Assembly: GCF_902769175.1 (NCBI RefSeq)
Contig: NZ_CACXNW010000009.1
Location: 1 to 64,000, forward strand
Length of the DNA: 64,000 nucleotides
Origin: an uncultured Methanobrevibacter sp.
GTDB lineage: Archaea; Methanobacteriota; Methanobacteria; Methanobacteriales; Methanobacteriaceae
Reading direction: 5' to 3'
How positions within the stretch are numbered: the first letter of the stretch is position 1; the number at the start of each line of letters is the position of its first letter. Under the pieces are notes generated by a model, which was not told the DNA's origin, did not search any database, and worked only from the letters and a program-made list of their open reading frames with translations. A program made the position numbers and the translations under genes. Below are positions 14,154 through 15,948 of the stretch, piece by piece.

Positions 14154-14957
14154 TCACTTTTTTAAGACATATACTGATATGACTATTGCTACAATCACTA
14201 CAAAACTTACGATAAGACTGGATTCTGGTCCAAAAGTTCTTCCATTTAAAATATTTGGACTAATTGCACTGAATTTTAATAATGAATAGGTAGTGGAGCC
14301 ACTAACATTTAACCCGAAAACAGGTCCTAATAGGAAATTCCATGCTGTATGGATACCACCGCAGATCCAAATGTTATCATATTTTAAAAAGATTATAGCA
14401 AAAAGGGTTCCAATTAGGAAAATATTCACAATTGACAGTATATCAAATCCGTTATTTCCTAAGTGTGGAAGAATGAATACTATATTTGATGCCAATATTG
14501 CAAATAGAATGCTATGTCTTCTAGCAAAGTAGGTTAATGCCCATCCTCTGCAATATATCTCTTCACCAAATGATTGCACTCCATATCCTATGAAATATAA
14601 GATAAGAAGAATGCAGCTTGAAAAATCAATGCCATTATATTTGAATTGTCCAAATAGAACTCCTATGATTATAATAGCAAAAATCAATACTAATCCAATC
14701 AATAATCCTTTTAATGTTGATGATATTACATTTCCCTTACTAAATCCAATACTTCTCAAACTGCGCTTTTCTATTTTGGTAATAAATAAATAGATTAGTA
14801 TTGGTGAGAAAATAAAGGATAAATGGACTAATAAAAAGTTTAATGGAGTTTGTATTTGTGCATTCGGATCAAAAAACATATATTGAACTATTGATATGAC
14901 AAGTATCAATATAAAAAATAATATGATGAAACGTCCTATTTCCTTAGAAAAAGACAT
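14154..14957 (-). CDS. CPBP-family intramembrane metalloprotease
   Basis: Predicted CAAX-protease/bacteriocin-processing (CPBP, Abi) family membrane protein, 267 residues as read from the ATG at 14957. The three family motifs are present: EExxxR (E132-E133...R137), FxxxH (F161...H165) and HxxxN (H203...N207), which supply the metal ligands and catalytic glutamate. Six to eight hydrophobic segments surround them. Members process prenylated or small peptides, and many have no known substrate. The ATG at 14957 lacks a ribosome-binding site. A strong one (AGAGGAG) lies before another ATG at 15028, which opens a 30-codon reading that overlaps this gene in another frame, so the true protein may be about 295 residues with one base lost near 14940. 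Confidence 0.8.
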   Translation of the reverse strand: MSFSKEIGRFIILFFILILVISIVQYMFFDPNAQIQTPLNFLLVHLSFIFSPILIYLFITKIEKRSLRSIGFSKGNVISSTLKGLLIGLVLIFAIIIIGVLFGQFKYNGIDFSSCILLILYFIGYGVQSFGEEIYCRGWALTYFARRHSILFAILASNIVFILPHLGNNGFDILSIVNIFLIGTLFAIIFLKYDNIWICGGIHTAWNFLLGPVFGLNVSGSTTYSLLKFSAISPNILNGRTFGPESSLIVSFVVIVAIVISVYVLKK

Positions 14958-15028
14958 TTTCGAACATTTTTACGTGCTTCCTTAATCGTTTCTGATTTGT
15001 CTGCATAACTTTCTATAATTGAAAACAT
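14936..15028 (-). CDS. 30-codon reading ahead of the CPBP gene: lost N-terminus or leader peptide
   Basis: ATG at 15028 follows AGAGGAGAAGT, the best ribosome-binding site of the locus. The peptide begins MFSIIESYADKSETIKEARK and ends KCLFLRK, overlapping the CPBP start by 22 nt. If one base is restored near 14940 the reading joins as CLFLR, one uncertain residue, IGRFIILFF, a natural lead into the first membrane helix. The simplest reading is a frameshifted N-terminal extension; a translationally coupled leader peptide is the alternative. Confidence 0.5.
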   Translation of the reverse strand: MFSIIESYADKSETIKEARKNVRKCLFLRK

Positions 15029-15269
15029 ACTTCTCCTCTTTAAGTTAATTCTAATATTATTATTTTTTAATACTATTAATACTTAATTTTAGAAAATAAT
15101 CTTTATAAGTTTTTTTATAAATTAAAACATTTTGAATGAAGAGATGTGTAAAATTATCGTTTATATGTTTAGAATAAAGAAATAGATGTTTATGAGTTAT
15201 TAAATGTTTTTTGTGTTTGTTGAATTAAATAAGCATGTTTTATGTAAAATTAAAGGATAATAATTAAAA

Positions 15270-15400
15270 AATTAAAAAAATGGTTATTTGCTTGTAAAAT
15301 AAAAATTATGATAATTTAAAAATTAAAAAAATGGTTATTTGCTTGTAAAATAAAAATTATGATAATTTAAAAATTAAAAAATAGTTTTTTGCTTGAAAAA
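15270..15400. repeat. 51-bp tandem repeat, three copies
   Basis: AATTAAAAAAATGGTTATTT-type units with TGGTTA at 15281 and 15332 and a variant at 15382, each followed by TTTGCTTGTAAAATAAAAAT or a close variant. Confidence 0.8.
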
Positions 15401-15427
15401 TAAAAAAATATAAAAAAATAAGAAAAT

Positions 15428-15475
15428 TTAATAGCATGGTTTTGGGTCATTGTTAACTACATCATATGGAATCAT
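15428..15475 (-). CDS. candidate 15-residue peptide gene
   Basis: The minus strand encodes MIPYDVVNNDPKPCY followed by TAA. The ATG is 8 nt behind an uninterrupted GAGGAGG (15483-15490 region), one of the strongest ribosome-binding sites in the window. About 50 nt further up, an archaeal promoter (GTTTATATAC, 15552-15561, with a purine-rich BRE) would start transcription near 15530. After the stop, T-rich tracts (about 15400-15427) resemble archaeal terminators. All parts of a transcription unit are therefore present for a 15-codon ORF. No family is recognised. It could be a functional micropeptide, a modified peptide precursor or the fossil of a larger gene. Confidence 0.45.
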   Translation of the reverse strand: MIPYDVVNNDPKPCY

Positions 15476-15551
15476 ATGTTTTTCCTCCTCATTTTTAAGT
15501 AGCTTCAATTAATTTTCAAATTTCCTGTTAATTTAATTTATTAAATAGTTA

Positions 15552-15581
15552 GTATATAAACTTAATCGAATGTAAGCGCTT
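15552..15581 (-). promoter_or_regulatory. BRE/TATA promoter with adjacent AAGCGCTT palindrome
   Basis: Minus strand: TCGATTAA (BRE-like) then GTTTATATAC (TATA). Immediately upstream lies the self-complementary AAGCGCTT (15574-15581), unusually GC-rich for this DNA, a possible operator. Confidence 0.5.
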
Positions 15582-15948
15582 GCTTGCATCATTAAATCTG
15601 ATATATTTGCTTAAAAATATCGATAATATGTAAAAAACTATTTATTTGTATTTTTGAAGAATGATGATGGATTAAAAGGGTTTATTAAAGAAAATTTTAG
15701 GATTGATAAAATTAAAAGAATAAAAAAATACTAAAAAAAAAGAGAGTATAGGAAATCTATAGAATATAATATTAAAAAAAGAGATATTTTGAAATAAAAA
15801 AAATAAAAAAAGAAAAGAAAAAGATTATAAATTTATTTAAAGATTAATTCGGATTTTTTTTTATTAAATAAATTTATTCAGTCTTTTATTTTAAAAGAAA
15901 TTAAAAATAAAGAAATTAAAATAGTTTAAAACTATTTTAATTGATAAT

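Follow-up and report, generated by a model that had tools for sequence, protein, structure and literature searches.

A 15-codon open reading frame in Methanobrevibacter with the features of a lineage-restricted micropeptide gene

Can an open reading frame (ORF) of only 15 codons be taken for a gene, and if so, what might its peptide do? Genes of such size lie below the threshold of gene finders, and genome comparison supports one here, in Methanobrevibacter, an archaeal genus relevant to methane from cattle. The window, as the whole stretch of 64,000 nucleotides analysed is called here, comes from an uncultured member of this genus. A preliminary description, made from the letters of the window, had claimed a complete minus-strand transcription unit for a 15-residue peptide: a BRE and TATA box, a leader, GAGGAGG, 8 nt, ATG, 15 codons, TAA, and T-rich tracts. 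All of these parts were verified in place (Table 1). The start of TTTATA is 5 nt past the TCGA of the operator, which is the usual spacing, and the distance from the TATA box to the ATG is 85 nt, giving a predicted leader of approximately 55–60 nt.

Table 1. Positions in the window of the putative 15-codon gene and of its predicted control elements
Feature	Position	Strand	Remark
Operator AAGCAAGCGCTTACATTCGA (palindromic AAGYAAGYRCTTRC + TTCGA, the latter taken as BRE)	15566..15585	-	0-mismatch site
AAGCGCTT inside the operator	15574-15581	-	
TATA box GTTTATATACT	15551..15561	-	Conserved in three relatives
Untranslated leader, predicted	15476..15530	-	Start site ~15530 inferred from the TATA position
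Shine–Dalgarno GAGGAGG, 8-nt spacer to ATG	15484..15490	-	GGAGG kept in 4/4 species
15-codon CDS, ATG...TAA, peptide MIPYDVVNNDPKPCY	15428..15475	-	Orthologues in G031, G018, and G030; evidence of purifying selection
T-rich tracts 3′ of the stop codon	15396..15427	-	Probable terminator

So strong a ribosome-binding site in front of a tiny ORF had been considered unlikely to arise by chance. Within the 64-kb window, GAGGAGG-N5-11-ATG has a single occurrence. In the whole 3.1-Mb genome, however, GAGGAGG-N8-ATG has seven matches, compared with six for a reversed control, therefore the ribosome-binding site had been over-weighted. It is not in itself proof of a gene, and its use as such was dropped; it is the conservation in three other genomes that places the gene far beyond chance.

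A DNA search of the genus identified two strong, near-full-length matches, in genomes G031 (73 %) and G018 (72 %), and pattern searches added G030 as the third relative carrying the ORF. All four ORFs are exactly 15 codons long, without insertions or deletions. The encoded peptides are predicted to be MIPYDVVNNDPKPCY in the window (G000), MIPFDVIENDPEPCH in G031, MIPFDVIENEPEPCH in G018, and MIPFDVIENEPETCN in G030, with the consensus M-I-P-[FY]-D-V-[VI]-x-N-[DE]-P-x-[PT]-C-x. The operator, TATA box, and GGAGG are likewise retained across the four species. A lack of conservation of the codons or of the ribosome-binding site in relatives had been named beforehand as evidence against a gene; the comparison was run, both are conserved in the three relatives, and the gene passed.

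The family is present in 4 of the 19 Methanobrevibacter genomes, absent from all 120 of the other Methanobacteriaceae genomes searched, and without a match in the viral contigs searched. In a scan of 84,980 genomes, only two named assemblies were found to carry it, uncultured Methanobrevibacter RUG11990 and the MAG of Methanobrevibacter olleyae SIG14; the record of G018 is assigned to M. olleyae. All four carrier sequences are draft assemblies, two of them named as MAG or uncultured records. As only 4/19 genomes of the genus carry the gene, it is dispensable; judged by these searches, it represents a lineage-restricted Methanobrevibacter micropeptide family without known relatives. Allowing three mismatches in the genus gave only two extra matches, which are in other contexts and look like chance.

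Identity between the orthologous regions is 75–94 % and gap-free in the ORF, compared with 48–80 % in the leader and 38–66 % after the stop codon, the last mostly with many gaps. Changes in the ORF are mainly at third positions, together with conservative first-position swaps, and the identity of the stop codon varies (TAA or TAG) at a fixed position. In every pair dN is lower than dS, with G018–G030 having too few changes to weigh. When the same substitutions were placed at random, an equally intact and conservative ORF was obtained with P = 0.0003–0.006 in five of the six pairs; the sixth, G018–G030, is uninformative, with just 3 bases differing. On the window's own branch the probability was P = 0.001–0.009, depending on how ambiguous sites were resolved. 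This branch has at least five replacements in the 15-mer, as would fit a partly relaxed selection once the partner gene had been lost. Across 15 codons and four sequences, these tests indicate codon-level purifying selection on the ORF between species. Based on this conservation, which settles the matter, the ORF is taken to be a genuine micropeptide gene, and the micropeptide reading of the preliminary description is borne out by the codons of four species.

In the window and in G031, the ORF is 3′ of, and co-oriented with, a conserved 'MKKMKEVT' gene, which encodes 769 aa in the window. In G018, two contig ends share a repeat, suggesting that there too the ORF adjoins this gene, and in G030 the ORF is approximately 10.5 kb further along the same contig, in the same orientation. 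In several relatives the stretch after the 'MKKMKEVT' gene is short or runs into other genes; in G033 just an apparent decayed operator remains in the slot, and in G021, the closest relative by the 'MKKMKEVT' gene, the contig stops before the slot can be read. Due to this variable content, the 15-mer is regarded as accessory, the variable slot that it occupies being one that precedes gltX. Elsewhere in the window, a CPBP/Rce1-like protease gene (14154–15028, minus strand) has a frameshift near 14955–14966: homologues in G031 and G021 have MFSIIESYADKSETIKEARKNVRK and MSFSKEIGRF joined in a single frame, and in the window these two parts fall into two frames. A second Shine–Dalgarno-preceded small ORF, at 14936–15028, was considered as another leader and rejected, being the frameshifted 5′ end of this protease gene.

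In G031, G018, and G030, the 15-mer would be the first cistron, as it is followed approximately 75–100 nt after its stop codon by a gene for a 51-aa protein. This protein has a basic N-terminus, one predicted transmembrane helix, and an N-terminal Cys that is lost in G030. The gene is missing from the window, where tblastn for a remnant gave nothing convincing; the T-rich tracts and a 51-bp repeat occupy the position at which the relatives have the membrane-protein cistron. The repeat is an AT-rich tandem repeat at 15260–15406, with 2.9 copies and 94 % matches. The 51-aa protein is homologous (33–39 % identity, E down to 1e-8) to a 62-aa membrane protein (CDLRRK...VLLLSILAVSAAP), which most Methanobrevibacter genomes encode, that of the window among them. 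Unlike the 51-aa protein, the 62-aa protein has a longer C-terminus past the helix, its gene has another promoter, and there is no micropeptide in front of it. Neither Pfam nor NCBIfam has a family for these small (51/62-aa) membrane proteins. The end of the 62-aa protein, AVSA-APxPxMMxWV (L085–L094, for example L089 from 1498), resembles a signal-peptidase site, cleavage at which would free a peptide of approximately 10 residues. Behind its gene there is a conserved inverted-repeat region, TTTATTAAAGGATGTAAC ... ACATCCTTTAA, and the gene adjoins what appears by eye to be an orc1/cdc6 gene.

A GC-rich palindrome had been noted just upstream of the TATA box of the 15-mer. It is present, but is not private to this gene, being a genome-wide operator. 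The composite element consists of AAGYAAGYRCTTRC, TTCGA, 5 nt, and TTTATATA; the operator, BRE, and TATA box together can be written as AAGYAAGYRCTTRCATTCGA-N5-TTTATATA, and the operator also as AAGTAAGCACTTACATTCGA. With no more than one mismatch, the operator has 48 sites in its own genome, compared with one for the reversed control, and a slightly wider exact pattern has 27 sites there, compared with none. Of the 139 family genomes, 48 have matches to the wider pattern; these genomes belong to three genera, and the control was 0 throughout. In 23 of the 30 sites read, a TATA box is exactly 5 nt downstream. Strongly hydrophobic N-termini are found in 20/26 of the downstream ORFs, compared with 6/34 background genes of the window (p = 5e-6), and several more of the downstream ORFs look secreted once a wrongly called start or a frameshift is allowed for. 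The promoter looks like that of a regulon made up of adhesin-like proteins and further exported ones, with the 15-mer as one member. No published description of this promoter element turned up in the literature searched, although one may exist, and nothing relevant came up there on promoter motifs of Methanobrevibacter adhesins or on Methanobrevibacter micropeptides.

A chance ORF, or a non-coding regulatory RNA resembling a gene, would be consistent with the AT-rich surrounding region and with the lack of genome-wide enrichment of the ribosome-binding motif over its control. This reading, already disfavoured, is very improbable given the codon conservation in four species, with its synonymous changes and fixed stop position; in addition, the 15-mer region has no Rfam match up to E 0.5 and RNA folds of the leader and ORF are no better than those of shuffles. 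It is also unlikely that the ORF encodes a precursor from which a secreted or modified peptide (a RiPP or signal peptide) is made. The conserved Cys, small size, and co-regulation with secreted proteins would suit such a precursor; however, there is no signal sequence in the 15-mer, and its neighbours vary between species, with no conserved modification, protease, or transport/export gene adjoining. The earlier suggestion of a modified-peptide precursor has thus found no support.

A regulatory leader has more in its favour. Here, the ORF would act in cis as a leader peptide (uORF): reading of the 15 codons by the ribosome would control translation or transcription of the 51-aa gene, the start region of which would be in a hairpin that this reading opens, and the window copy would be an orphaned leader that outlasted the gene it regulated. 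Attenuator leader peptides of the trpL and ermC type are short ORFs with a strong Shine–Dalgarno sequence, before a gene with a ribosome site that a hairpin can hide. The position, length, and strong Shine–Dalgarno sequence of the 15-mer are typical of leaders, as is consistent with the closely following membrane gene of the three relatives. In all three, predicted folds cover the Shine–Dalgarno sequence or start of this gene (z -3.5 in G018, -1.4 in G030, and -0.6 in G031), and in G031 and G018 the region around the peptide's own Shine–Dalgarno sequence is less structured than shuffles. However, the fold clearly surpasses shuffles in just one of the three relatives, the pairing in G030 differs, and a ribosome at the stop codon of the 15-mer would not reach the Shine–Dalgarno hairpin. 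Moreover, it is the residues of the peptide that are conserved, not merely the act of translation, and the window ORF is still conservative without a target gene. In contrast to trpL and ermC, the 15-mer is without a run of regulatory codons, and its peptide persists in one species in which the downstream gene is lost; no repeated regulatory codon for amino-acid sensing was found in the four sequences, though a nascent-chain arrest motif may still be present. The regulatory leader of the preliminary description agrees with the foldable membrane-gene start in three relatives, but in the window it would have no downstream gene left to control. It is possible, although on balance not likely, that the 15-mer is such a leader.

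The reading favoured over a cis leader is that this is a genuine micropeptide gene, the peptide of which most likely serves the membrane protein as a small partner in trans (probability roughly 0.5). From the sequence, we infer that transcription would start from the promoter of the surface- and secreted-protein regulon, with its palindromic operator, BRE, and TATA box, and that the strong Shine–Dalgarno sequence would drive translation of a soluble 15-residue peptide. In the original arrangement, the peptide would be co-produced with the 51-residue single-helix membrane protein with its basic N-terminus. When the surface-protein genes are induced, it may bind in trans to the basic N-terminus of this protein or of the genus-wide 62-aa paralogue.

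This trans-acting role is favoured by persistence without the cistron partner, by higher conservation than the partner, and by two acidic residues having been lost from the peptide where the partner is absent. The window species retains the operator, TATA box, Shine–Dalgarno sequence, and ORF despite having lost the downstream gene, which speaks for a role of the peptide itself. Between G031 and G018, nonsynonymous changes number 1/37 in the peptide and 22/123 in the membrane protein (p = 0.017), therefore in this pair the peptide is the slower-changing of the two. The acidic E8 and E12 are lost in the window species, where the basic membrane partner is also lost; as one case, this match is only suggestive. 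It is a more tentative proposal that the 15-mer regulates a minimal (51–62 aa) membrane protein in trans, or forms a subunit of it, and tunes the surface-protein programme of rumen methanogens. If so, few functional proteins of archaea would be as small, and it would be able to persist after the loss of its cistron partner.

Unannotated small ORFs have been identified by Ribo-seq in Methanosarcina mazei, some in the 5′UTRs of longer genes and some conserved in the genus (PMC11456600). As in those cases, the 15-mer is a very short methanogen ORF conserved within its genus; the M. mazei ORFs are from another archaeal order and have ribosome footprints, whereas the 15-mer is known from sequence alone, and the two are likened by kind. 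According to a title cited in the same paper, Spot 42 RNA of E. coli encodes a 15-aa protein (PMC11456600). Going by that title, the protein is functional and of the same size, but it is bacterial and on a regulatory RNA, with no membrane-protein cistron, and is likened by size.

The micropeptide comes with a candidate partner, the 51-aa membrane protein, and with a promoter code that would tie it to adhesin-like and secreted proteins. Such proteins are thought to mediate the contact of these methanogens with other cells, and the operator may provide an entry to the regulation of large surface repertoires in this Methanobrevibacter clade. In the window's own genome, several operator-driven genes, probably for secreted proteins (L066, L078, and L079), are broken at short T or A runs in the signal-peptide region, for example ACTTTTTAAAATC, which may reflect phase variation, decay, or an error of assembly. 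In G020 and G032 (L017 and L019), this operator also stands before a conserved stretch, ACTGTAAGAAGTGTTTCTGCATCTATGATGTGGATCACTACAGTAATTCTATTT, that appears not to code for protein and is a candidate small RNA.
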